Part shown: positions 4,276 through 18,829 of the stretch, piece by piece
Position numbering within the stretch: position 1 is the stretch's first letter
How the letters are laid out: every line of letters starts with the position of its first letter
Source of the DNA: a virus
IMG/VR virus record: IMGVR_UViG_3300013014_001691
Coordinates: 1 to 21,973 of that record
Direction: 5' to 3' (one strand)
Length of the DNA stretch: 21,973 bases
The notes under the pieces: generated by a model
The model's input: only the letters and a program-made list of their open reading frames with translations
What the model was told of the DNA's origin: nothing
Databases searched by the model: none
Program-made: the position numbers and the translations under genes

Positions 4276-5385
4276 TTATTTTCCATGAGCAAACCCCTCA
4301 TACATACTATTTGGGCTATTTCTAACAGCTTGTATGCTATTATTCCATAGACCACCACGCATATCTTGAAGATTTCTAAAACCAAGATAACTCATGGCGC
4401 TTCTTAACCCATTGGTAAAATCATATACAACATCTTCTATGGATTTATTTTCAATAATTGGAATTAGAGTATTGTCACCTTCTACGAAGAGATTCTTTTT
4501 GGTCCCATCGTATAGATCATAATCTTGTACGACATCTTGACTAGCCATACCTCTATACTTAGCAAATCTTTTACCATCTACCTCTATAATATTCTCATCA
4601 TCAATAACATCAGCCAGTCCAGCAAAAATTCTGCCACAAATAACAGCATCACATCCACTAGCAATTGCTTTTACTAAATCTTTTGGATATCTAATACCTC
4701 CATCGGCAAGGATACTTGGTCTATGAGATGGATTGGGTTTATCTTGTTTAAATAAGTCAACTTGAGAAAGCTCCCAATTTCTTACAGCTTTCCAAGCATA
4801 ATAGTTGCCAGTAACACTTGGACATCCAATCCCAGTCTTAACTTGTGTTAAGCACATAGAACCTGGACCGATAAGATGTCTAAATCCATCAGCTCTTAAA
4901 TTTGCTAAACGAAATACGCTTTCTTTAGTTAATGTATTACCAACAATAATATCTTGAGAAAATTGAGATATTTTATACCATCGTAAGAAATCTTCTACAG
5001 TTTTAGATAAACCGTTAGCAGTATCAAGAAAATAAATGTCAGTATAAATGCTAGTAGACGAAATTCTTTCTTCTGCATCTTTTAGGCCAATAGCTGTAAT
5101 ACAAAAATTACTTTCATCTTTAATTATTTTAGCTTTAGATTTTTGGTCTTCTATAGTCATAAAACGATGAAGAACTCCAGCACCACCTATTTTATTCATT
5201 TTAATACAGCTTTTCACAGAAGATACTGTATCCATAGGAGATAATATAATAGGTATCTTGACATAGTTATTTCTTGATATCTTAGTTGTAGTATCAACTT
5301 CTTTTCTAGAAGTTATATCTGAAAAATTTGGTAAAAGTGAAATATCATCATAGCTTAAAGCTTCTTTGAATTCTTGTTTTTGCAT
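4276..5385 (-). CDS. GMP reductase / IMP dehydrogenase family enzyme
   Basis: The 369-residue TIM barrel lacks CBS domains. Motifs in order: LSYDDISLLP (10-19), SPMDTV (49-54), LDTANGLSK (120-128), the catalytic loop GPGSMCLTQVKTGIGCP with nucleophile Cys178, ADGGIRYPKDLVKAIASGCD, CGRIFAG, and KYRGMAS. The ANG triplet and the short flap without the Arg-Tyr pair of IMPDH resemble GMP reductase, which makes IMP from GMP with NADPH. YRGM and the C-terminal GLRSAMSYLG block are shared by both families. The usual TTR after the Cys is LTQ, an oddity. It lies alone on the minus strand, convergent with the gene at 3798 (4-base gap), behind its own leaderless-type promoter. I lean to GMP reductase; IMPDH is the alternative. 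Confidence 0.8.
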   Translation of the reverse strand: MQKQEFKEALSYDDISLLPNFSDITSRKEVDTTTKISRNNYVKIPIILSPMDTVSSVKSCIKMNKIGGAGVLHRFMTIEDQKSKAKIIKDESNFCITAIGLKDAEERISSTSIYTDIYFLDTANGLSKTVEDFLRWYKISQFSQDIIVGNTLTKESVFRLANLRADGFRHLIGPGSMCLTQVKTGIGCPSVTGNYYAWKAVRNWELSQVDLFKQDKPNPSHRPSILADGGIRYPKDLVKAIASGCDAVICGRIFAGLADVIDDENIIEVDGKRFAKYRGMASQDVVQDYDLYDGTKKNLFVEGDNTLIPIIENKSIEDVVYDFTNGLRSAMSYLGFRNLQDMRGGLWNNSIQAVRNSPNSMYEGFAHGK

Positions 5386-5391
5386 TCATTG

Positions 5392-5420
5392 ATATTATGC
5401 TATTTTTCAAAAAGAATCAA
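5392..5420 (-). promoter_or_regulatory. Sigma70-type promoter, leaderless geometry
   Basis: On the minus strand TTGATT (5420-5415), 17 bases, TAATAT (5397-5392), then 6 bases to the ATG at 5385. The predicted transcript would start at or beside the A of the start codon. Confidence 0.6.
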
Positions 5421-5429
5421 GAAAATTCA

Positions 5430-5458
5430 TTGACTTAAAAGTAAAAAAAGTTTAATAT
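5430..5458 (+). promoter_or_regulatory. Sigma70-type promoter, leaderless geometry
   Basis: TTGACT (5430-5435), 17-base spacer, TAATAT (5453-5458), 6 bases, ATG at 5465. It is divergent from the 5392-5420 promoter, with only 9 bases between the two -35 elements. Confidence 0.65.
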
Positions 5459-5464
5459 AGCTCT

Positions 5465-5530
5465 ATGCTTGAAACACTTACATGTATTTTAATGGGTATT
5501 GGAATAGCTATACATTGGCACTTCTTCTAA
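5465..5530 (+). CDS. Tiny membrane peptide, 21 aa
   Basis: The frame MLETLTCILMGIGIAIHWHFF starts exactly where the promoter at 5430-5458 should begin transcription and ends 3 bases before the dCMP deaminase ATG. Residues 5-16 are hydrophobic, long enough for a short membrane helix, and the C-terminus is aromatic/His-rich. Without this peptide the promoter would have a 69-base leader, so the peptide could also be a leader that couples translation into the deaminase. A second tiny peptide ending in IHHW occurs at 19640. The function is unknown. Confidence 0.5.
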   Translation: MLETLTCILMGIGIAIHWHFF

Positions 5531-5533
5531 AAA

Positions 5534-5947
5534 ATGAACAAAAGAATATCATTTATTGAAGCTGCTATACAAACAGCAGCTTTATGGTCTAAAAGATCAG
5601 AAGATCCATATAAAAAAGTTGGAGTATGTATTTTAAATAAAGATGGTAGAGTATTATCTATAGGATATAATGGCCTAGTATCTAAAATCAAAGTCAATAA
5701 ACAATTTTTTAATGATAGGGACAATAGAAGAAAATATATGATTCATGCAGAAATCAACGCATTATCCCTTATCAAACGCACAGATGAACCATATTTATTA
5801 GCCTCGACTTTACTACCATGTTCAAATTGCGCTACGAATATTGTTGCTTATGGAGTTAAAACTGTGGTATACTCAGAAGACTATGAAAAAGACGCCAGTG
5901 CAAAAGACATATTTAAATTTTACAATGTAAAGCTTATAAAAATATGA
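5534..5947 (+). CDS. dCMP (deoxycytidylate) deaminase
   Basis: A zinc-dependent cytidine/deoxycytidylate deaminase fold, 137 residues. HAE at 71-73 supplies the first zinc ligand and the catalytic Glu, and PCSNC at 95-99 supplies the two Cys ligands. It converts dCMP to dUMP for dTMP synthesis, a standard T4-like phage step feeding thymine into an AT-rich genome. The length is at the short end for phage dCMP deaminases (T4 Cd is longer). It starts 3 bases after the tiny peptide and overlaps the following exported repeat protein by 4 bases, so it lies in an operon under the 5430 promoter. A closely related ComE-type deaminase is the only realistic alternative. Confidence 0.88.
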   Translation: MNKRISFIEAAIQTAALWSKRSEDPYKKVGVCILNKDGRVLSIGYNGLVSKIKVNKQFFNDRDNRRKYMIHAEINALSLIKRTDEPYLLASTLLPCSNCATNIVAYGVKTVVYSEDYEKDASAKDIFKFYNVKLIKI

Positions 5948-6420
5948 AATATATAATCCTATTATCTCTTTTAACCAATCTTGCAATAGCTCAATCTGGA
6001 GCGGTTTATGAAACTTATAAAACTAGAGGTGGTGGCACAAACCAATCTGACGGAACAATATTCAATAAGCCGTTTCAAGAATATAATTATATTAAAACTG
6101 CTAGAGGAATAGAAGTATATCAGACTTATAAAACTGGTGGTGGTAATGGAACTAATCAATCTCATGGAACGATATTCAATAAACCATTTCCAGAATACTA
6201 TATAGTTGGAAATAACATATATAGAACATACAAGACTGACTATAAATCAACTAATCAATCTCATGGTACTATATTTGCTCAACCTTTTCAGTCAAAAGAA
6301 ATAAAAGTTCAATCTTTAAAAGAGAATATAAAAACTCAAGTAAGAATACAGAGCACTTATTCAAAAAATAATGGTCCAACTTACGATGGGGAAACTTATT
6401 CATCTGGAGGCGAAGAATAA
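5944..6420 (+). CDS. Exported protein with three tandem repeats
   Basis: The 158-residue product begins with a clear signal peptide (MKYIILLSLLTNLAIA, likely cleaved before Gln17). Three repeats follow at about 22-58, 59-92 and 93-116. Each fits YxTYKT-x(3-5)-TNQSxGTIFxxPF, with Gly-rich linkers. A polar Gln/Lys/Ser tail ends the protein. No cysteines or membrane anchor are seen after the signal, so it should be periplasmic or secreted. It is embedded between dCMP deaminase (4-base overlap) and dNMP kinase (1-base gap), an odd place for an exported protein. Expression with early genes suggests an infected-cell envelope role such as superinfection exclusion; that is inference. I recognise no family. 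Confidence 0.7.
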   Translation: MKYIILLSLLTNLAIAQSGAVYETYKTRGGGTNQSDGTIFNKPFQEYNYIKTARGIEVYQTYKTGGGNGTNQSHGTIFNKPFPEYYIVGNNIYRTYKTDYKSTNQSHGTIFAQPFQSKEIKVQSLKENIKTQVRIQSTYSKNNGPTYDGETYSSGGEE

Positions 6421-6421
6421 T

Positions 6422-7009
6422 ATGATAGGATTAACAGGGGTGGCAAGATCTGGCAAAGACACATTTTACTCAATACTTAATAGATATTTAGAAGAAAAAA
6501 ATATAAAATCTCAAAGAATAGCTTTAGCAGACATCTTAAAAAAAGAATTAAATGATTTTACAAAAGAAAAATTTAAAATTGATTTAAATAAATGCGAAGG
6601 AAATGAAAAAGAATTAATTAGACCCCTTATGGTTGCGTATGGAAAATGTAGACGCATGCAAAGCGAAGGAAAATACTGGACATCTTTAGTAGATCCTAAA
6701 ATAAAAGAATTTAAGAAAGAGCACATTCTCCCTATTATAACAGATGTAAGATACATAGAGTATAAGGACGATGAATACTCTTGGTTAAAGTCTCACAATG
6801 GAATATTAATTCATATATCAAGAAAACTAGACGATGGCTCACTTGTTCTCCCAGCAAATGCAGAAGAAAAATCTAACGATAATAAACTAAAAGCTGTTGC
6901 GGATTATTCTGTAAATTGGGAAACTTGTCAAGATGTTAACTTTTTATATGAATTAATGCAAAAACATTTGAAAAACATATACGAAAAATATTTAGGAGAT
7001 ACCAAATGA
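6422..7009 (+). CDS. Deoxynucleoside monophosphate kinase, T4 gp1-like
   Basis: Residues 1-14 (MIGLTGVARSGKDT) contain a P-loop of the GxxxSGKDT kind typical of phage dNMP kinases. The rest (about 195 residues in all) has the P-loop kinase pattern, with ITDVRYIEYKDDE as a Walker-B-like strand and an Arg-rich lid region near RPLMVAYGKCRRMQ. It phosphorylates dNMPs to dNDPs with ATP. I chose the ATG at 6422 because GGAGG lies upstream (6406-6410) and the P-loop begins right after it; a longer frame to 6371 would only overlap the repeat-protein gene. It overlaps the sigma-factor gene by 4 bases. Confidence 0.82.
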   Translation: MIGLTGVARSGKDTFYSILNRYLEEKNIKSQRIALADILKKELNDFTKEKFKIDLNKCEGNEKELIRPLMVAYGKCRRMQSEGKYWTSLVDPKIKEFKKEHILPIITDVRYIEYKDDEYSWLKSHNGILIHISRKLDDGSLVLPANAEEKSNDNKLKAVADYSVNWETCQDVNFLYELMQKHLKNIYEKYLGDTK

Positions 7010-7605
7010 ATTTAAATATTAATTTAGATGACGCAACATTAGTCAAAAATATACAAGAAAATAATGATGAAAACTCGCTTAAAATACTAGTAGACCGTCA
7101 TTCTCCGCTTTGCCATTCGTTGTATAAAAAATATACAGCTCCAATGGTAGCATCTGGTGTTTATGTTAAAGATGTAATAGACCAAAAAGATTATATTGTC
7201 TACAAATCAGCAATATCATTTGATCCATGTAAAAAATCAAAATTTTCTACTTGGCTATATAATCAAGTGAGATATCAATGTTTGAATTGTATGAACGAAA
7301 ACGGCCACTATATTACCCTTGAGGCAGATAAACTCAATTATTTAATAGAAAAGAATACTGTAATTCCAAAAGAATACAAAAATATAAATGAATATATTTC
7401 TAATATTATAGAATCTTGCTCAGATAAAAGAGTTAAAAAAATATTTAAGTTAAGATATTTAAGTGCTTCTAATAAAAAAATGGCTTGGAATAAGATAGCT
7501 AAAAAACTAAATATTAGCACCCAAACAGCTATTAATATACATAATAAGACCGTTAAATTATTAAAAAATAAAATACAAAGCAAAAATTCTTTTGACAAAA
7601 TATAA
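7006..7605 (+). CDS. Sigma-70 family RNA polymerase sigma factor (phage)
   Basis: The 199-residue protein has a sigma region 2 (about 8-98, including KFSTWLYNQVRYQCLN, the 2.3/2.4 helix) and a region 4 helix-turn-helix (about 140-190, KIFKLRYL...WNKIAKKLNISTQTAINIHNKTVKLL). Regions 1 and 3 are missing, as in compact ECF-like and phage sigma factors such as T4 gp55 relatives. It should redirect host RNA polymerase to phage middle or late promoters. The TGTAAT-type motifs in this window, which lack a -35, are the obvious candidate targets, but that link is inference. It overlaps the dNMP kinase gene by 4 bases, so it is made with the early nucleotide genes. Confidence 0.8.
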   Translation: MNLNINLDDATLVKNIQENNDENSLKILVDRHSPLCHSLYKKYTAPMVASGVYVKDVIDQKDYIVYKSAISFDPCKKSKFSTWLYNQVRYQCLNCMNENGHYITLEADKLNYLIEKNTVIPKEYKNINEYISNIIESCSDKRVKKIFKLRYLSASNKKMAWNKIAKKLNISTQTAINIHNKTVKLLKNKIQSKNSFDKI

Positions 7606-7620
7606 TAAAGGAGCTACAAT
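7592..7620 (+). promoter_or_regulatory. Sigma70-type promoter, leaderless geometry
   Basis: TTGACA (7592-7597), 17-base spacer, TACAAT (7615-7620), 6 bases, ATG at 7627. A Shine-Dalgarno-like AAGGAG sits inside the spacer at 7608-7613, 13 bases from the ATG. It would be present only on read-through mRNA from the upstream operon. Confidence 0.7.
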
Positions 7621-7626
7621 ACTAAA

Positions 7627-7962
7627 ATGAATAATACAAACACAAACACAAATACAAATACAGTCGCAAACAAAAATCAAAATGAGCTAGGTGCTCTCTG
7701 GAAAAAGAAGAGCAAAACAGGCTTGTCATTCCTATCAGGTTATATTAATGACCAAGACGGGCAAAGAACAGATATTGTCGTTTTTGCTAACAGCAAAAAA
7801 ACAAACGAAAGAGCTCCAGACTATAGGCTTTATATTTCAAAGCCTCTAGAAACTCAAAATAAAACTGCCTCTCTACCTGAAGTAAAGGAAAATACTGAAG
7901 CTAAAGTAACAAAAATTAAAAATCAACAGGTAGTTGAAGAGGATGAAGATGACATCCTATGA
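7627..7962 (+). CDS. SSB-like protein with acidic C-terminal tail
   Basis: The 111-residue product has a low-complexity (Asn-Thr)5 N-terminus, a compact beta-rich core at about 19-75 (ELGALWKKKSKTGLSFLSGYI...VVFANSKK...APDYRLYISKP), a charged linker, and a very acidic end, EEDEDDIL. The core pattern (WKK...YLSG...APDYRIY) resembles the DUF736-like small proteins of phages and plasmids, and an acidic tip after a flexible linker is a hallmark of bacterial and phage ssDNA-binding proteins. I infer a ssDNA-binding or replication-accessory role. It has its own strong leaderless-type promoter, which suits a protein needed in quantity, and overlaps the glycosyltransferase gene by 4 bases. Confidence 0.55.
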   Translation: MNNTNTNTNTNTVANKNQNELGALWKKKSKTGLSFLSGYINDQDGQRTDIVVFANSKKTNERAPDYRLYISKPLETQNKTASLPEVKENTEAKVTKIKNQQVVEEDEDDIL

Positions 7963-9044
7963 ATTTAGCGTTTAATTTGCCAGTAAATTCAGTAAGTTTT
8001 GGTCAAATATCTACACTCATTCTTAGAGAGCTTTTTGCTTCTAAGTTCAACGTCCCTATAATACCTATAGGTAATGTTGATTTATCTACGCAATCAGACT
8101 TGAATCAAGACTTTACTAAATGGTTGGAGGAATTGGTAAATTCTTCATTAGAGCAAATAGACAGAAAAAACAAAATATTCAAATTATGGCATTTAAATGG
8201 CTCGTTTGAAAGTTACTCTAACCAACAAGTCTTGCTTAGTTTTTACGAATTAGATCAACCAACAAAAGTAGAAATTAATACCATAAAAAACAATAATAAA
8301 GCTCTCTTTTCCTCGAAAGAGACAGTTGAAATTTTTAAAAATCTTGGATGCAAAAATGTAGAATATATTCCATTAGCATTTGATAAATATAATTTCAATA
8401 CGACAGATAAATCTTATTTTACAGATGATAGGATAGTTTTTAACTTAGTAGGTAAATTGGAAAAAAGAAAGCATCATTTAAAATTAATAGATCTTTGGGC
8501 TAAAAAATTTGGTAATAATAAAAAATACGCTTTACAATGTTGTATTTTTAATCCATTTATGAAGCCAGAAGATCAAAATAATCTTATATCTCAAGCCTTA
8601 CAAGGTAAAAGTTATTTCAATATAAATTTTCTGCCTTTTATGGGACAAAATAAAATATATAATGATTTTTTAAATAGCGGTAACATTATATTAGGTATGA
8701 GTGGAGGGGAGGGCTGGGGTTTACCAGAATTTCATTCTGTAGCGATGGGTAAACACGCAGTAGTAATGAATGCCCACGGATATAAATCTTGGGCAAATGA
8801 AGATAATTGTACGCTAGTTGAACCCAACTCAAAAATGGAAGCCTATGACGGTATATTTTTTCATAAAGGTGCACCATATAATCAAGGTAATATATATGAT
8901 TTTGATGGAAGCGATTTCATATCTGCTTGCGAGGTAGCTATTAAAAAAACAGAAACTCAAAAATTAAATCAACAAGGCCTTGCTCTTCAAAAAGAATTCT
9001 CTTCTGAAAAATTTTTACAGAATATATTAACTCATTTGAAGTAA
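7959..9044 (+). CDS. Glycosyltransferase, GT4-like
   Basis: The 361-residue protein has two Rossmann-like halves. The second half contains VGKLEKRKHHLKLIDLWAKKF (the GxxxxRK segment after the hinge) and the donor-binding GGEGWGLPEFHSVAMGKHAV, a good match to the E-x7-E region of GT4 retaining glycosyltransferases. It transfers a sugar from a nucleotide-sugar donor. In phages such enzymes modify DNA bases, virion proteins or host surface glycans, and the sequence does not show which. It lies between the SSB-like gene (4-base overlap) and the small gene at 9045, whose ATG follows its stop directly. No membrane segment is seen. Confidence 0.8.
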   Translation: MNLAFNLPVNSVSFGQISTLILRELFASKFNVPIIPIGNVDLSTQSDLNQDFTKWLEELVNSSLEQIDRKNKIFKLWHLNGSFESYSNQQVLLSFYELDQPTKVEINTIKNNNKALFSSKETVEIFKNLGCKNVEYIPLAFDKYNFNTTDKSYFTDDRIVFNLVGKLEKRKHHLKLIDLWAKKFGNNKKYALQCCIFNPFMKPEDQNNLISQALQGKSYFNINFLPFMGQNKIYNDFLNSGNIILGMSGGEGWGLPEFHSVAMGKHAVVMNAHGYKSWANEDNCTLVEPNSKMEAYDGIFFHKGAPYNQGNIYDFDGSDFISACEVAIKKTETQKLNQQGLALQKEFSSEKFLQNILTHLK

Positions 9045-9395
9045 ATGCCTTTCTATACTTATATAAACCCAGACACAGAAGAAATGATTGATATATCTCA
9101 ATCTATAAATGAAAACCATGTCTATATTGATAAAAATGGCTTAGAGTGGAGGAGAGTTTTTACTGTTCCAGAGGTAAATACTCATGGAACCTTAAAAGCT
9201 GACGCAACAGAAAAACAATTCTCAGAATATACTAGAAATCAAAAAGGCTCTATGGGCGATCTTTATGATAGGAGCGCAGAGCTTTCAGAGAAAAGAAAAA
9301 AAATATACGGAAAAGATCCAGTAAAGAAAAAATATTTTAATGACTGGTCTAAAAAAAGAAAAGGCAAAGTACACCCCAAAAGTCATTTAGAGTAA
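9045..9395 (+). CDS. Small FmdB-like phage protein, 116 aa
   Basis: The N-terminus MPFYTYINPDTEEMIDISQ and the following WRRVFTVPEV have the layout of FmdB-type zinc-ribbon proteins (MPxYxYxCxxC...), as found in many phages, but all zinc cysteines are absent: the protein has none. The C-terminal half is strongly basic (SEKRKKIYGKDPVKKKYFNDWSKKRKGK is a long Lys-rich run, split here only to describe it). The ATG follows the glycosyltransferase stop with no gap, implying re-initiation. DNA, RNA or protein binding is plausible; the role is unknown. Confidence 0.6.
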   Translation: MPFYTYINPDTEEMIDISQSINENHVYIDKNGLEWRRVFTVPEVNTHGTLKADATEKQFSEYTRNQKGSMGDLYDRSAELSEKRKKIYGKDPVKKKYFNDWSKKRKGKVHPKSHLE

Positions 9396-9472
9396 ATTGT
9401 TTATAACATTTTATATTTCTCTTTCTTTATCACTAAAAAAGATGTAATATAGAGTCTAATCAACTCTATAAA
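9396..9472 (+). promoter_or_regulatory. nrdA leader with promoter-like motif and start-site hairpin
   Basis: The 77-base gap contains GATGTAATAT (9441-9450), related to the TGTAAT motifs elsewhere. It overlaps an 8-bp perfect inverted repeat: TATAGAGT (9448-9455), 7-base loop, ACTCTATA (9463-9470), ending 2 bases before the nrdA ATG. No Shine-Dalgarno sequence is visible. It could be an operator or a hairpin controlling translation of nrdA. Confidence 0.5.
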
Positions 9473-11719
9473 ATGAACGTTAAAAAAAGAAATAATACTA
9501 CTGAAAAATTTGATATAGAAAAAATTAACAAAGTTATTAATTGGGCTATAGATGGGTACGCTGGAGTAAGTTTAACTGATATAGAAATTAACGCTAAGAT
9601 CAATATAACTGATGGCGTTCACACAAAAGAAATTCATAGTTTATTAATTGAAAGTGCAGCTAACTTAATCTCTATAGAAAAACCAAATTATCAATACGTT
9701 GCGGCTAGACTACTCAATTATCAATTAAGAAAAGATGTTTGGAAGGGTAAGCATGCCCCAAGGCTTTCTGAATTTATAAATAATGGTTTAAAAAATAAAA
9801 TATACGATCCTATCATCCTAGAAAAATATACAGAAGATGAAATAAATAAACTAGGAGAGATCATAGACCACGAAAGAGATTTTATTTTTACATATGCTGG
9901 TATAAAACAATTATGCGATAAATATTTAATAAAAAATAGAACTACTCAACAGATTTATGAAACTCCGCAATTCGCTTATATATTAATTTCTGCCTATGCA
10001 TTTATTAATTACCCAACTGAAACTAGGCTAGTTTATGTTAGAAAATTTTATGATGCTATCAGTAAACATAAAATAAATTTACCAACACCAGTTATGGCAG
10101 GAGTAAGAACATCTAGTAAAAATTACGCAAGCTGTTGTTTAATTGGCGTAGATGATACAAGAGAAAGTATTACTGCTAGTGCGACAGCAGTTAGTATGGC
10201 TACAGCAAATAGATGCGGTATCGGAATTGATGTTAGCAAAATTAGAGCCATTGGCGCACCAATTAAAAACGGCGAAGTTGTTCATACAGGTTTAATCCCA
10301 TTCTTAAAAATTTATGAGAGTAGCGTAAAAGCTTGGCAACAAAACGGTTTAAGAGGAGGAAGTGCAACTTGCAATATTCAATGGTGGCATTACGAAATTG
10401 AAGATATCATAGTATTGAAAAACAACGCTGGAACAGACGATAATCGTGTTCGTAAACTTGACTATACAGTTGGTATGAGTAAATTATTTTATGATAGGGT
10501 TTTGAAAGATGAAGATATTATGCTATTTAATACCGCCGAAGTACCAGAACTTTATGAGGCTTGGGGAACAAAGGATTTTGATAAGGTTTATAAAGAGTGC
10601 GAATCTAAGAAACTCAAAATTAAAAAGAAAATTTCTGCTCGTAAATTATTCTCTCTTATAATAAAAGAAAGAGTTGAAACTGGAAGAATTTATATTCTAA
10701 ATGTAGATCATGCTAATAATCATGGAGCATGGTCTGATAAAGTTACCATGAGCAATCTTTGCACAGAAGTTATTCATCCCACAATCCCACTTAATGATTA
10801 CCACGATAAAGACGCAGAAATTGGGATGTGTATTCTTTCAGCGGTTAATATGTTAGAAATAAAAAATTGGCAGGATTTAGAAAAAGTTTGCGATCTTATC
10901 GTAAGATTCCTTGAAGAAATTATAGATATTCAAGATTATTTTAATTTCGCAGCAGAAAATTTTGCAAAAAAGCGCAGAAGCCTTGGTGTTGGAATTACCA
11001 ATCTCGCAGCTTTTCTTGCTAAAAATGAATTAAAATATAATTCAGATAAGTCTCTTTCAATAATAGATGAATGGATGGAGCATTTTCAATATTATCTTTT
11101 AAAGAGTAGCTGTCAACTATCTAAAGAAAAAGGTAGATGCGAAAAGTTTGAAAAGACGAAGTACTCTAAAGGCATCCTGCCAATAGATACATATAAAGAT
11201 AAAGTAGACGAATTAGTTAAAAGAAAACTATCACTTGATTGGGAGAAACTAAGGAAAGATATTAAAGAATTTGGATTAAGACACTCTACATTATCTTCTT
11301 GCATGCCTTGTGAGAGTAGCTCTGTGATTCAATCATCCACAAATGGCGTTGAACCTATTCGTAGCCTTATCACTTATAAGACAAGTAAAATGGGTAAACT
11401 TCCAGTTATGGTTCCAGGAATTGGAAAATATGACCATAACTATGAATTAGCTTTTGATTTTAAAGACAATTTAGGTTTATTAAAAGTCAATGCAGTAATT
11501 CAAAAATATATTGATATGGCTATTTCTACTAATGTATACTATAATTATAGTCACTATGATAATCATATATTACCAGATAGTAAAGTTATGAAAGAAATAA
11601 TGTATGCTTATAGTCTTGGATTAATTAGTTTGTATTATAATAATACAGATGATGGAGATAAAGAACAATCTATGACACAAAAAGAAGATGACTGCTCAAG
11701 TGGGGCGTGTAAACTATAA
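9473..11719 (+). CDS. nrdA: Ribonucleoside-diphosphate reductase, large (alpha) subunit, class Ia
   Basis: The 748-residue enzyme reduces NDPs to dNDPs together with NrdB. An N-terminal ATP-cone (about 1-90) suggests allosteric activity control. Catalytic features are in place: Cys221 (YASCC; Cys225 of E. coli), Asn428/Cys430/Glu432 (NLCTE), Cys453 (GMCILS, Cys462 of E. coli), the radical-transfer pair Tyr689-Tyr690, and the redox tail CSSGACKL with Cys741 and Cys746. Length is close to E. coli NrdA (761). It is separated from nrdB by an FkbM methyltransferase gene. A hairpin and TGTAAT motif precede it, and no Shine-Dalgarno is seen. Confidence 0.95.
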   Translation: MNVKKRNNTTEKFDIEKINKVINWAIDGYAGVSLTDIEINAKINITDGVHTKEIHSLLIESAANLISIEKPNYQYVAARLLNYQLRKDVWKGKHAPRLSEFINNGLKNKIYDPIILEKYTEDEINKLGEIIDHERDFIFTYAGIKQLCDKYLIKNRTTQQIYETPQFAYILISAYAFINYPTETRLVYVRKFYDAISKHKINLPTPVMAGVRTSSKNYASCCLIGVDDTRESITASATAVSMATANRCGIGIDVSKIRAIGAPIKNGEVVHTGLIPFLKIYESSVKAWQQNGLRGGSATCNIQWWHYEIEDIIVLKNNAGTDDNRVRKLDYTVGMSKLFYDRVLKDEDIMLFNTAEVPELYEAWGTKDFDKVYKECESKKLKIKKKISARKLFSLIIKERVETGRIYILNVDHANNHGAWSDKVTMSNLCTEVIHPTIPLNDYHDKDAEIGMCILSAVNMLEIKNWQDLEKVCDLIVRFLEEIIDIQDYFNFAAENFAKKRRSLGVGITNLAAFLAKNELKYNSDKSLSIIDEWMEHFQYYLLKSSCQLSKEKGRCEKFEKTKYSKGILPIDTYKDKVDELVKRKLSLDWEKLRKDIKEFGLRHSTLSSCMPCESSSVIQSSTNGVEPIRSLITYKTSKMGKLPVMVPGIGKYDHNYELAFDFKDNLGLLKVNAVIQKYIDMAISTNVYYNYSHYDNHILPDSKVMKEIMYAYSLGLISLYYNNTDDGDKEQSMTQKEDDCSSGACKL
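11707..11716 (+). promoter_or_regulatory. TGTAAA motif at nrdA end
   Basis: GTGTAAACTA is identical to 14751-14760. It lies 8 bases before the FkbM ATG but also encodes the conserved nrdA C-terminus, so its presence may be coding constraint. Confidence 0.2.
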
Positions 11720-11724
11720 ATTAT

Positions 11725-12291
11725 ATGTATAATTATCAATCTCAATTTTGCCAAGATATTTGGGTAGACAATGTTTTAAACAAGATAAACAACGGATATT
11801 TCGTAGACTTAGGAGCACATGAATCTGAACACATAAGCAATTCTTATTTCTTCGAAAAAGAAAGAAATTGGAAAGGTTTAGCGGTAGAAATAGATCCAAA
11901 ATGGAAGCACCAATGGATAGAGAATAGACCAAGCACAGTTTTTATATCCGAAGACGCTACAATTATAGATTATAATACTGTTTTAAAAGAAAATAATTTT
12001 CCACAACAAATTGATTACCTATCAATCGATTTAGAACCTCCAACAGTCACATTAAAAGCTTTATATAAAATAATACAAACAGATTTTATATTTAAAACGA
12101 TAACCTTCGAAACTGATTATTATAGAGAAAAAACGACTAGAGAACCTTCTAGAGAATTTTTAAAAAATAATGGCTATATCCTAATTAAAGATGTTGGTTC
12201 TAATGGATCTTCTGTAGATGATTTTTATATTCATAATTCAATATATAATTCATCATTTTGCGATTTTAAAACAGAATGGGATATGAGTTAA
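11725..12291 (+). CDS. FkbM-family methyltransferase inserted between nrdA and nrdB
   Basis: The 188-residue product opens with YNYQSQFCQDIWVDNVL, and GYFVDLGAHES is the SAM-binding motif I. AVEIDP (motif II-like) and DYLSIDLEPPTVTLKAL (the IDLEG-type motif IV region of FkbM proteins) follow. These enzymes use S-adenosylmethionine for O-methylation, often of sugars; the real substrate here is unknown. It begins 5 bases after nrdA and ends 3 bases before nrdB, so it is co-transcribed with RNR. The motif GTGTAAACTA (11707-11716), shared with 14751, overlaps the nrdA stop just upstream, but there it also encodes the conserved NrdA tail. Confidence 0.75.
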   Translation: MYNYQSQFCQDIWVDNVLNKINNGYFVDLGAHESEHISNSYFFEKERNWKGLAVEIDPKWKHQWIENRPSTVFISEDATIIDYNTVLKENNFPQQIDYLSIDLEPPTVTLKALYKIIQTDFIFKTITFETDYYREKTTREPSREFLKNNGYILIKDVGSNGSSVDDFYIHNSIYNSSFCDFKTEWDMS

Positions 12292-12294
12292 TAA

Positions 12295-13359
12295 ATGAAA
12301 ACAGTTTTAAATTTTAAAAATATAGATTTTACTAAACAACCATTGTTTCTTGGCGAAGATTTAAATTTACAAAGATACGACAGGTTTAAGTATCCAATAT
12401 TTTTTGAGCTATTTAAAAAGCAAAACGAAAACTTCTGGTGGCCTCATGAAATAGCGCTAGGAAAAGATAGAAGCGATTATAAAAACTTAACTGATACAGA
12501 AAGATTTGTATTTGATAGTAATTTAAGATTTCAAACTCTTGGAGATAGTATGCTTTCTAGAAGCATACATTCTCTCAAAGACTATGTTACTAATCCAGAA
12601 CTTGAAATATGTATGAATACTTGGGCTCAATTTGAAGGTATTCATTCTTACTCTTATTCTTATCTTTTGAATAATGTTCATCCAGATCCTACAAAATTTT
12701 TTGATAGCATCATGGAAGATAAAGAAATAACAAGTCGCGCTCAATTGATTAGAGATAATTTTGATAAAATTCTTGGTAGCGATGAAAAGAAAGACCCTAA
12801 ACAAAAGATTTTTGATGCTCTTCTTTCTATTAATGTAATGGAAGGACTTGTATTTTACGTTTCCTTTGCTTGTTCTTTCTATTTTGGATATCGTGGAAAG
12901 ATGGAAGGGAACTCTAAGATTATCAAATTCATCCAAAGAGACGAGGCGCTTCATTTCGCGGTATCTCAAAACCTAATGAAAATATTAAGGGACGAAGACA
13001 AAGAAGGTTTTACCTCTCTTGTAAAGAAAAATGAAGATAAGATATATGCTTTCTATGAACAAGCAGCAAAGAACGAAAGTGAATGGTCTAAGTATCTCTT
13101 TAGTAATGGCAGTTTACTTGGATTAAATGCTGACGTTTTAGACGGCTACTCCAAGTGGCTTTGCGACAGTAGATTAAGAAGCTTAGGGTATAAGAAGATA
13201 TTCAATCAAAAAGACAATCCTATTGCTGGATGGCATGATAGCTATTTGGACAGTAGTAAAGTACAAGTTGCGCCACAAGAGACTGAGATATCTAGCTACA
13301 AAGTGGGCGCAAGGAAAACGGACATTGAAGATAAAGATTTCTCTGATTTAAAACTATAA
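12295..13359 (+). CDS. nrdB: Ribonucleoside-diphosphate reductase, small (beta) subunit, class Ia
   Basis: The 354-residue di-iron protein carries the tyrosyl radical for NrdA. Metal ligands match E. coli NrdB: Asp84, Glu114 and His117 (FEGIHS), Glu183 (MEGLVFYVSF), and Glu217/His220 (RDEALH); an expected Glu between them lies in MEGN (Glu204) and may instead be structural. The radical tyrosine is Tyr121 (HSYSY), so this is class Ia/b and not the tyrosine-less Ic type. The C-terminus (VQVAPQE.EISSY.VG...LKL) strongly resembles gammaproteobacterial NrdB. There are 3 bases between the FkbM stop and this ATG. Confidence 0.94.
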   Translation: MKTVLNFKNIDFTKQPLFLGEDLNLQRYDRFKYPIFFELFKKQNENFWWPHEIALGKDRSDYKNLTDTERFVFDSNLRFQTLGDSMLSRSIHSLKDYVTNPELEICMNTWAQFEGIHSYSYSYLLNNVHPDPTKFFDSIMEDKEITSRAQLIRDNFDKILGSDEKKDPKQKIFDALLSINVMEGLVFYVSFACSFYFGYRGKMEGNSKIIKFIQRDEALHFAVSQNLMKILRDEDKEGFTSLVKKNEDKIYAFYEQAAKNESEWSKYLFSNGSLLGLNADVLDGYSKWLCDSRLRSLGYKKIFNQKDNPIAGWHDSYLDSSKVQVAPQETEISSYKVGARKTDIEDKDFSDLKL

Positions 13360-13370
13360 TAGATAAGAAA

Positions 13371-13385
13371 AAGTGTAATTATCTA
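13371..13385 (+). promoter_or_regulatory. Candidate late-type promoter, identical to that at 3015
   Basis: AAGTGTAATTATCTA again, here 1 base before the GTG start at 13387. TGTAAT (13374-13379) ends 7 bases before the start codon. No TTGACA-like -35 is found 15-19 bases upstream. Confidence 0.5.
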
Positions 13386-13386
13386 T

Positions 13387-13716
13387 GTGAACTTAGATAT
13401 TACAATTATATTCAATTTAGTCTTAGGAGCACTTTCTTTTTTAGGGGGATGGCTATTCACCAGAGTATTCTCTCTTTTCGACAAACAAGAAACTCTGATG
13501 AAAGATATAAATGATAAAACGTTTAGTGACTTTATTACTTTAAGAAGAGAACTAGAATTAGAGTCTAGAAAACATCAACAAGAATTAGCTGACCTAGCAT
13601 TGAAAGTTAGCGTAACATACATGACTAAAGAATCTTTTGAAACATACTTTAATAGAATAGAAGACAAATTAGATCGAAATTTTGATATAATACAAGAGCA
13701 CTTGTCAAAAAAATAA
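13387..13716 (+). CDS. Small membrane-anchored coiled-coil protein, 109 aa
   Basis: A single N-terminal membrane segment (about residues 4-27, IIFNLVLGALSFLGGWLF) is followed by an amphipathic, charged, coiled-coil-like region (about 30-105) ending in KK. Small phage proteins of this layout are common and some act in lysis or virion assembly, but nothing specific is visible. The start is GTG: the ATG two bases upstream is followed immediately by TGA. The candidate late promoter abuts the start. It is followed, after 39 bases with a separate promoter, by the PurA-like gene, so the two are probably expressed at different times. Confidence 0.65.
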   Translation: MNLDITIIFNLVLGALSFLGGWLFTRVFSLFDKQETLMKDINDKTFSDFITLRRELELESRKHQQELADLALKVSVTYMTKESFETYFNRIEDKLDRNFDIIQEHLSKK

Positions 13717-13718
13717 TC

Positions 13719-13747
13719 TTTACTTTACTTTAGGATATTGGTATAAT
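13719..13747 (+). promoter_or_regulatory. Sigma70-type promoter with extended -10
   Basis: TTTACT (13719-13724), 17-base spacer, TATAAT (13742-13747) preceded by TGG (extended -10). The ATG at 13756 is 8 bases after the -10, giving a leader of about 0-2 bases. Confidence 0.6.
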
Positions 13748-13755
13748 TTTAACTG

Positions 13756-14748
13756 ATGGTAAATTATGTGGATATTATATTCGGGTTAGCTTGGGGTGAT
13801 GAAGGTAAGGGCAAAATTAGTAATGCAATTAGCAAAAATTATGATATGGTGTGCCGTTGGAATGGTGGACCAAATGCTGGTCATACAGTATACTTAGGCG
13901 ATAAAAAATATAAAACACATCTTATTCCTTGTGGGGTTTTTCAAAATAAACTTAGCGTCATTGGTCCAAATTGCGTTATTAATATTGATAAATTTTATGA
14001 TGAAATAGATTATCTTAAAAAAGAAGGATTTGATACATCATTAATTAAAGTAAGTCCAAGAGCTCATGTGATAACAGAAAGACACATTCAATATGATCTT
14101 AAATATTTAAAACCTAAGCTTGGAACAACTGGCCAAGGTATTGCTCCTTGTTATGCTGACAAAGCATTAAGGGTTGGTAAACTTGCGAAAGATTATTTAG
14201 ATAAACAATATCTTTGGAATGGTGAATTGCATGGAAATATACTTTGTGAAGGTGCTCAAAGTTTTTGGTTAGATTTAAATTATGGAGATTACCCTTATGT
14301 TACAAGTAGCGAAACATTACCATATTCAGCTTGTTCTCTTGGTTTTTCTCCAAAAAAAATTAGAGATATTATTGGCGTAGCAAAAATTTATGATACTAAA
14401 AGTGGAGTAGACCCTATATTTCCAGAATTATTATGGCAAGATGAAGATCTTAACAAAATTATAGAGCTTGGAAAAGAATTCGGTTCTACTACTGGTAGAA
14501 AAAGAATAGTTAATTGGTTAAGATTGAATCATTTAAAACAAGCAATTAAAATTTCTGGTACAAATAAATTAATTATAAACAAATGTGATATTTTAGAAAG
14601 CATTAATAAATATAAAATTATTACAGATGATGAAAAAGGACCAAGTCATATTAACTTTAATGATTTTGATAACATGAAAGAATACATAACAAATGAACTT
14701 AAAGAATATTGCGAAGTTACTTTTTCTGGAAATAAATCTTTCATTTAG
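13756..14748 (+). CDS. Adenylosuccinate synthetase, short PurA/PurZ-superfamily form
   Basis: The 330-residue protein is about 100 residues shorter than bacterial PurA and near the size of archaeal PurA and phage PurZ. Motifs: WGDEGKGK (13-20), NAGHT with His43, GTTGQGIAPCYADK (123-136), EGAQSFWLDL (165-174), YPYVTSS, FGSTTGRKR with Arg248, and NKCD (275-278). PurA joins IMP and aspartate using GTP to give adenylosuccinate; PurZ does the same with dGMP on the way to 2-aminoadenine DNA. The catalytic Asp (Asp15, Asp13 of E. coli) is present, whereas published PurZ enzymes, as I recall, replace it; NKCD also favours GTP. So an IMP-using enzyme is more likely. It has its own promoter. Confidence 0.85.
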   Translation: MVNYVDIIFGLAWGDEGKGKISNAISKNYDMVCRWNGGPNAGHTVYLGDKKYKTHLIPCGVFQNKLSVIGPNCVINIDKFYDEIDYLKKEGFDTSLIKVSPRAHVITERHIQYDLKYLKPKLGTTGQGIAPCYADKALRVGKLAKDYLDKQYLWNGELHGNILCEGAQSFWLDLNYGDYPYVTSSETLPYSACSLGFSPKKIRDIIGVAKIYDTKSGVDPIFPELLWQDEDLNKIIELGKEFGSTTGRKRIVNWLRLNHLKQAIKISGTNKLIINKCDILESINKYKIITDDEKGPSHINFNDFDNMKEYITNELKEYCEVTFSGNKSFI

Positions 14749-16113: not shown

Positions 16114-16116
16114 ACT

Positions 16117-16203
16117 GGAACGATGGCTGAGTGGTCTAAAGCAGAAGTTTACTAAACTTCCGATGGTTAATTCCATCCGTGGGTTCGAATCCTACTCGTT
16201 CCG
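16117..16203 (+). tRNA. tRNA-Ser with unusual anticodon ACU
   Basis: The 87-base class II tRNA has acceptor GGAACGA/TCGTTCC with discriminator G, a 3-bp D-stem GCT/AGC, anticodon arm GAAGT/ACTTC around TTACTAA, a long variable arm with GATGG/CCATC, and a TTCGAAT T-loop. The long variable arm marks it as tRNA-Ser. The anticodon reads ACT where phage and bacterial tRNAs for AGY codons normally have GCT: base 34 is A instead of G. It should read AGT best. It begins 3 bases after tRNA-Asn. Confidence 0.9.
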
Positions 16204-16211
16204 AAAACATC

Positions 16212-17920: not shown

Positions 17921-17926
17921 TGAATG

Positions 17927-18829
17927 ATGAGAAAAGGAGTTTGTTGTATTGTATCTAGTCTAGCTGATAGAGAAGATAATCCTATCAAGTTCAATACTAT
18001 GACTTATGCTCGTTTCTCATCTATGGACAGAAAGGAAGCTGTTTCTACCCTTTCTTCTAGAATATTAAACAATATGACTACCACTTATCAATACATAAAA
18101 TATTGTGCCGACCATAATCATACTTATAGAATTTCTTCTGATCTATTTCCTCTTATCACTTATGACAAAGCAAATGTAAAGCTAGAAGATTTACCAGACT
18201 ATAATAAAATATTAGTATCATTTGATACTATCAAACATCTTATTCAATCTAGGAATGTTAGAGTATCTTGCCATCCTTCTGAATTTAATGTTCTTGCAAG
18301 TGATAACGAAAATGCAATCACTAAAACAATCAAAGAATTAAATCACTATGGTTGGTTTATGACGCAAATTGGTTGTCCACTAAACTATGACGCACCTATG
18401 AATATGCACATACATAATTCTAAAGGTGATTTAAATAACATAGTAAAGAAGTTTATGAGCAACTTTGAAAAACTATCAGATGATGTTAAGTCTAGATTAG
18501 TTATTGAGAATGATGATAAAGATACTTGTTGGTCAGTTAAGAAACTTATGAAGCATTTTCATTCTGTATCTAATATTCCGATTACTTTTGATTATCTTCA
18601 TCACAAATGTCATCCAGATAATCTATCAGAGGAACAAGCATTTCATCTTGCACGAATTACTTGGGGCAATCATACTCCATTGTTTCATTACTCTGAAAGT
18701 ATAGATGGTCATAAGAATCCTAGAAAACACGCAGATTACGCAAAGTCCTTGCCAAATACTTATGGTTATGATAATATAGATGTTGACTTTGAATTAAAAA
18801 TGAAAGAACAATCTTTTGCTAAATTATGA
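17927..18829 (+). CDS. uvsE: UV damage endonuclease (UvdE/UvsE family)
   Basis: A TIM-barrel DNA repair nuclease that nicks 5' of UV photoproducts using divalent metal ions. Visible motifs: YRISSDLFPL, VSCHPSEFNVL, MHIHNSKGD, VIENDDKDTCW, ITFDYLHHKCHP and FHYSES; the His/Glu/Asp residues in these blocks form the metal site. At 300 residues the length is normal. Two adjacent ATGs (17924, 17927) are possible; 17927 sits exactly 6 bases after the -10 and is preferred. The stop overlaps the following HNH gene (ATGA). Light-exposed aquatic phages commonly carry such repair genes, which fits but does not prove the habitat. Confidence 0.88.
   Translation: MRKGVCCIVSSLADREDNPIKFNTMTYARFSSMDRKEAVSTLSSRILNNMTTTYQYIKYCADHNHTYRISSDLFPLITYDKANVKLEDLPDYNKILVSFDTIKHLIQSRNVRVSCHPSEFNVLASDNENAITKTIKELNHYGWFMTQIGCPLNYDAPMNMHIHNSKGDLNNIVKKFMSNFEKLSDDVKSRLVIENDDKDTCWSVKKLMKHFHSVSNIPITFDYLHHKCHPDNLSEEQAFHLARITWGNHTPLFHYSESIDGHKNPRKHADYAKSLPNTYGYDNIDVDFELKMKEQSFAKL

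Follow-up and report, generated by a model that had tools for sequence, protein, structure and literature searches.

A 21,973-base fragment, which makes up the entire IMG/VR record IMGVR_UViG_3300013014_001691 (the window), encodes a GMP reductase (GMPR)-like enzyme and a compact adenylosuccinate synthetase (PurA). We find both genes linked to a dCMP deaminase gene in a group of AT-rich freshwater phages, and the purine pair and the C-to-T enzymes probably convert G+C into A+T precursors for a low-GC genome (29.9% GC in the window, 29.6–32% in the phage group). The phage GMPR-like enzyme would convert GMP into IMP and ammonia, NADPH being the expected co-substrate, the compact, GTP-dependent phage PurA would join IMP and aspartate to adenylosuccinate, and host PurB would yield AMP. 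The phage ribonucleotide reductase would then make dADP from ADP. On the pyrimidine side, the phage dCMP deaminase would turn dCMP into dUMP, and phage ThyX, encoded elsewhere in the genome, would convert dUMP into dTMP. The net effect would be a conversion of host-derived G and C nucleotides into A and T precursors, suiting a genome of ~30% GC. The three genes at the core of the proposal are as follows.

4276..5385, minus strand: GMP reductase-like protein, IMPDH/GMPR barrel with no CBS domain, 369 amino acids (PF00478, 2.3e-63)
5534..5947, plus strand: dCMP deaminase-like protein, 137 amino acids, HAE and PCSNC motifs, divergent from the GMPR gene (PF00383, 3.7e-15)
13756..14748, plus strand: compact adenylosuccinate synthetase (PurA), 330 amino acids (PF00709, 4.9e-82)

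The GMPR- and PurA-like open reading frames (ORFs) had been predicted at these coordinates, and their presence is confirmed by the PF00478 and PF00709 matches and by a shuffle control, in which the longest open stretch arising by chance was 137 amino acids (30 window shuffles), far below the length of either ORF.

Scans of IMG/VR returned 79 PurA loci and 66 GMPR loci, many of them on shared contigs. After removal of duplicates, 67 distinct contigs contain GMPR, PurA and dCMP deaminase genes within 12 kb. GMPR and PurA lie on the same strand in 56 of these and are separated by ≤3 kb in 46, so that the divergent arrangement in the window is a minority form. The dCMP deaminase gene is present in 124/124 loci having both GMPR and PurA; as these contigs were picked for having both genes, only gene order, spacing and the third partner are informative. 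Because the window is a fragment, we read the wider genome from 22 large related contigs (72–212 kb, picked mostly for PurA). An IMPDH/GMPR gene is found in 19 and ThyX in 20 of the 22; ThyA and a PurB-type lyase were detected in none (0/22 each). The invariable dCMP deaminase beside the pair and the frequent ThyX suggest a coordinated conversion of G+C into A+T. A MazG-family gene occurs in 7/22 related contigs (for example at L298 4807–5022) and, provided that its product is dGTP-specific, could supply the reductase with (d)GMP.

We aligned the barrel family (68 members) with Escherichia coli GuaC and GuaB, cellular IMP dehydrogenases (IMPDHs) and GMPRs, and phage homologues. The catalytic Cys186, Thr188 and Glu289 of GMPR correspond to Cys178, Thr180 and Glu302 in the 369-residue protein. 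The flap Arg of IMPDH is missing and replaced by Leu in every family row examined; the canonical IMPDHs in the alignment keep the Arg-Tyr pair. The protein carries an HRF motif as in GMPR2 and an ANG motif (residues 123–125) as in GMPR1. Both the ANG motif and the missing flap Arg had been proposed from the sequence and are borne out by the alignment. A suspected replacement of the GMPR Glu by Gln (GMASQ) was dismissed on numbering, as Glu289 sits in a later VEG motif. A Pfam search detected no CBS domain in the barrel, a domain also missing from some IMPDHs. Water activation in IMPDH depends mainly on Arg418 as the base, and GMPRs conserve Glu431/289 (PMC2525682). With Cys178-Thr180-Glu302 kept and the flap Arg missing, GMP reduction is the best reading of the barrel's chemistry. 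The protein shares the Cys-x-Thr and Glu residues, the lack of a flap Arg, and the ANG or HRF motifs with GMPR1 (GuaC), GMPR2 and GuaB1/GMPR3, but it is ~28% identical to them, forms a separate long-stem clade, has CLTQ in place of CTTR, and possesses an extra insertion around residues 200–220 and its own C-terminal tail. It scores below the cut-offs of all IMPDH and GMPR equivalog models; given this and its deep clade, we do not assign it to any named GMPR family.

Relatives of another phage type provide the best sequence evidence that the barrel is a GMP reductase. Four contigs (G012, G015, G017 and G036) encode a PurA of the window's family (65–69% identical for three of them) together with a GMPR2-type reductase. 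The three of these reductases that were included in our tree group with the GMPR2 proteins of phage 42E and phage G (support 100/99), apart from the barrel family of the window. G012, whose 143-bp identical terminal repeats indicate that it is probably complete at ~211 kb, is T4-like and encodes gp20, gp23, PolB, ThyX and dUTPase; G002 of the window lineage encodes DNA polymerase III alpha and DnaB. Thus, the same pair is found in two phage types whose reductases differ in ancestry. The converse rule, PurA wherever GMPR2 occurs, failed, applying to 4/25 GMPR2-bearing viral contigs from a single clade. A dCMP deaminase accompanies GMPR2 in 15/25 contigs, a count with no background rate for comparison. 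The original prediction of a G-to-A route through GMPR, PurA and host PurB is partly supported, by the active-site residues, the linkage in 67 contigs and the GMPR2-type replacement, and is strengthened by the conserved tie to dCMP deaminase and ThyX; the activities themselves are what we infer.

The PurA family alignment comprises 79 members. The catalytic Asp13, Lys16 (GDEGKGK loop) and His41 correspond to Asp15, Lys18 and His43 and are conserved across the family, and the aspartate/IMP-binding R303, R305, Q224, T129 and R143 correspond to R248, R250, Q168, T125 and R139. Asn40, Thr183, Thr246, Lys276 and Asp278 are likewise kept. Asp15 and the NKCD motif, both pointed out previously, are confirmed by the alignment. 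Among the key residues for IMP, Asp and GTP, only R131 (Gln127) and V273 (Ser216) are replaced, and both changes are family-wide. Val273 is identical in all other PurA, PurZ and PurZ0 sequences examined. Ser216 lies inside a ribose loop that is altered from TRVGxGPFPTE to DTKSGVDPLFPE and gains one residue. In PurZ, an insertion pushes the same Val nearer to C2' of dGMP (PMC8342488), and the remodelled loop of the window PurA may by analogy alter its sugar preference.

Compared with bacterial PurA (E. coli, H. pylori, T. thermophilus), the window enzyme has the same predicted fold (Z 36.6–37.5), the same catalytic Asp, His41, Arg143, Arg303, Arg305 and Lys331-x-Asp333, and bacterial signature columns, but it is 330 rather than ~410–430 residues long, in addition to the two substitutions and the changed loop. 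Its length results from a ~58-residue internal deletion and a reduced C-terminal part, with the C-terminal motif cut to FSG. The internal deletion exceeds that of archaeal PurA, and the protein was thus likely shortened independently. It passes the Pfam PF00709 cut-off and misses that of the NCBIfam PurA equivalog NF002223 (267 bits, cut-off 402), which marks it as a divergent superfamily member; a genome scan returned no cellular PurA of >39% identity among the matches listed.

The protein had been regarded as a possible intermediate between PurA and PurZ, a view that our data weakly contradict. In 22 columns that divide bacterial PurA from archaeal PurA and PurZ, the family is bacterial in 16, of the other type in 3 and neither in 3. 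The predicted structure (predicted local distance difference test (pLDDT) 88.5) best matches E. coli and H. pylori PurA (Z 37.5), followed by P. horikoshii PurA (33.4), PurZ0 (29.9), phiVC8 PurZ (28.5) and S-2L PurZ (27.6), in a comparison where longer targets may score somewhat higher. The free tree, which like our other PurA trees includes a single archaeal sequence, gives weak support (84/72) to a position of the family among bacterial PurA, and approximately unbiased (AU) tests do not reject grouping with archaeal PurA/PurZ (p 0.60), with PurZ (p 0.31) or, when PurZ is omitted, with Pyrococcus (p 0.068). The trees alone thus leave the placement unsettled, and we place the enzyme with bacterial PurA by its signature columns, hidden Markov model (HMM) scores and modelled fold.

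A second route had been suggested, in which a PurZ-type enzyme would convert dGMP into succino-2-aminodeoxyadenylate and the phage DNA would contain 2-aminoadenine. The phage setting, the short protein, the Gln in place of R131 (a feature shared with phiVC8 PurZ) and the MazG-family genes in 7/22 contigs agree with this. PurZ and PurZ0 (phiVC8, S-2L, Archimedes) share with the window PurA the protein family, a phage-borne gene, a similar length and an altered ribose-side loop. All 147 phage PurZ/PurZ0 sequences carry Ser at the catalytic Asp position (PMC12884076), whereas the window protein has Asp15 in place of the Ser (or Gly) that defines PurZ/PurZ0 in that study. It also keeps the R303 equivalent and the GTP-type Asp333 equivalent, scores 96.6 bits with the PurZ model NF038379 (cut-off 300), and has a fold closer to PurA than to PurZ. 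DatZ (YfbR, PF12917) and PolA (PF00476) were found in 0/22 related contigs, which are mostly partial but include the probably complete G012; DutZ and DmtZ were not searched for. A (d)GMP reductase would moreover deplete the dGMP that PurZ requires. We therefore discarded this route on Asp15, the HMM score and the lack of DatZ and PolA hits, and regard it as highly improbable.

The main rival to base conversion is that the pair recycles GMP from host RNA to ATP and other adenine nucleotides, independent of genome composition. Both GMPR and PurA belong to ordinary salvage metabolism, and S. aureus purA and guaC rise ~2–4-fold after phage K infection (PMC9241854), a response that by analogy also fits base conversion. 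Against plain salvage stand the constant dCMP deaminase beside the pair and ThyX in 20/22 contigs, and several isolated GMPR phages are much GC-poorer than their hosts: Cr30 has 38.4% GC, RAS14 42.2%, XacN1 49.7% and phiYS40 ~33% (in a 4-kb stretch), with hosts at ~65–69%. We consider such salvage a real though minor possibility. The pair might also act on deoxynucleotides, converting dGMP from degraded host DNA via dIMP into succino-dAMP, a dG-to-dA step parallel to dCMP to dTMP. Ser216 in place of Val273 beside C2' and the residue inserted in the ribose loop, where dGMP-specific PurZ is altered as well, point in this direction; we find this substrate form unlikely. Alternatively, the barrel might be an IMPDH, and the phage would draw IMP both ways (to XMP and to adenylosuccinate) to raise all purines. 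The barrel clade is loosely nearest to an IMPDH-holding group (84/95, short of strong support), and its NCBIfam score is higher for IMPDH (177 bits) than for GMPR (143 bits), both under cut-off. Yet the family rows lack the Arg on which IMPDH chiefly relies to activate water (PMC2525682), the ANG and HRF motifs are present, GMPR2 stands in for the barrel in relatives, and GuaB1-type GMP reductases (NF052358 match) leave the direction unfixed by closeness to IMPDH. This makes an IMPDH quite doubtful.

Several observations weigh against base conversion by a GMPR-PurA pair, the reading that we prefer. Apart from its tree and model affinities to IMPDH, the barrel family forms a deep separate clade with a long stem outside GMPR1 and GMPR2, and its predicted structure had a pLDDT of 48 and was left unused. 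Both enzyme activities are predictions from sequence. No IMPDH/GMPR gene was detected in 3 of the 22 large PurA contigs, one of which spans 177 kb, and 21/25 GMPR2-bearing viral contigs are without PurA, which implies that host PurA often suffices and that the pair is not obligatory. The value of ~30% GC is that of the phage genome alone, and the isolated phages compared are few, with no correction for phylogeny. That the pool shift is what the enzymes serve is accordingly stated here as probable.

Both genes had been proposed to lie behind leaderless-type promoters, and we indeed find promoter-like sequences 6–8 nucleotides before each ATG.

5392..5420, minus strand: candidate leaderless promoter of the GMPR gene (TTGATT 5415–5420, 17-bp spacer, TAATAT 5392–5397)
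13719..13747, plus strand: candidate leaderless promoter of the PurA gene (TTTACT 13719–13724, TGGTATAAT, -10 at 13742–13747)

The GMPR element ends 6 nucleotides upstream of the ATG, and close relatives have the same arrangement. In the PurA element the -10 lies at -14 to -9, 8 nucleotides upstream of the ATG, and is conserved in part of the relatives only. Sequence inspection located no Shine-Dalgarno motif upstream of either gene. Elsewhere in the window, the hexamer GTGTAA occurs at 893, 1887, 3017, 13373 and 14751, ending ~8–15 nucleotides upstream of the starts of ORFs 914, 1901, 3034, 13387 and 14764; it is possibly a phage-specific promoter element.

Between the GMPR and PurA genes of the window lie that of the dCMP deaminase-like protein and three further nucleotide-metabolism genes.

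6371..7009, plus strand: deoxynucleoside monophosphate kinase-like protein (phrog_139, 1.1e-18; PF21448, 2.8e-6)
9473..11719, plus strand: NrdA, class Ia ribonucleotide reductase alpha (NF006578, 870 bits, cut-off 813)
12295..13359, plus strand: NrdB, class Ia ribonucleotide reductase beta (PF00268, 2e-57)

For the kinase-like ORF an alternative start at 6422, preceded by a Shine-Dalgarno-like GGAGG, is possible. The gap between nrdA and nrdB (11725–12291) holds an ORF that resembles an FkbM methyltransferase by sequence appearance and was detected in just 13/124 related loci. The protein encoded at 7006–7605, present in 122/124 related loci, shows a weak likeness to sigma-70 region 2 (PF04542, 2.2e-4, under cut-off) and is a possible phage sigma factor. 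Outside this region, we noted a UvdE-family UV endonuclease gene (17924–18829; PF03851, 4.8e-40), a 240-residue ORF with an extremely high content of Cys, Gly, Ser and Asn (1901–2623), and a tRNA-Ser at 16116–16204 that adjoins a tRNA-Asn, with a tRNA-Thr close by. The anticodon of the tRNA-Ser is ACT (A at the wobble position); the customary anticodon for AGY codons is GCT.

T4-like phages and the chlorovirus PBCV-1, which have dCMP deaminase and thymidylate synthase, share the proposed C-to-T logic, and the dCTP:dTTP ratio shifts by over sevenfold during infection with PBCV-1, in the direction of the virus's lower GC (PMC10142491). What sets the window group apart is the additional linkage of GMPR and PurA as a purine branch. 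In the AT-rich Caulobacter phage Cr30, genes for dCMP deaminase, NrdAB and thymidylate synthase lie close to a GMPR-like gene, but its GMPR falls on the GMPR1 branch and Cr30 is absent among the phage PurA matches listed. A literature search found no study of phage GMPR and PurA as a base-composition module; the published work that we found concerns the C-to-T side, in chloroviruses. What is new here is thus the purine branch of such a module and the remodelled PurA, the chemistry itself being ordinary. A PurA-family gene in a phage need not imply 2-aminoadenine DNA, even though the PHROGs name of the matched family is '2-aminooxy adenylosuccinate synthetase'. The genomes of many lytic phages have a higher AT content than those of their hosts, and the supply of A precursors in such phages is largely unstudied; the conserved cluster of dCMP deaminase, putative GMP reductase and PurA makes this question testable.

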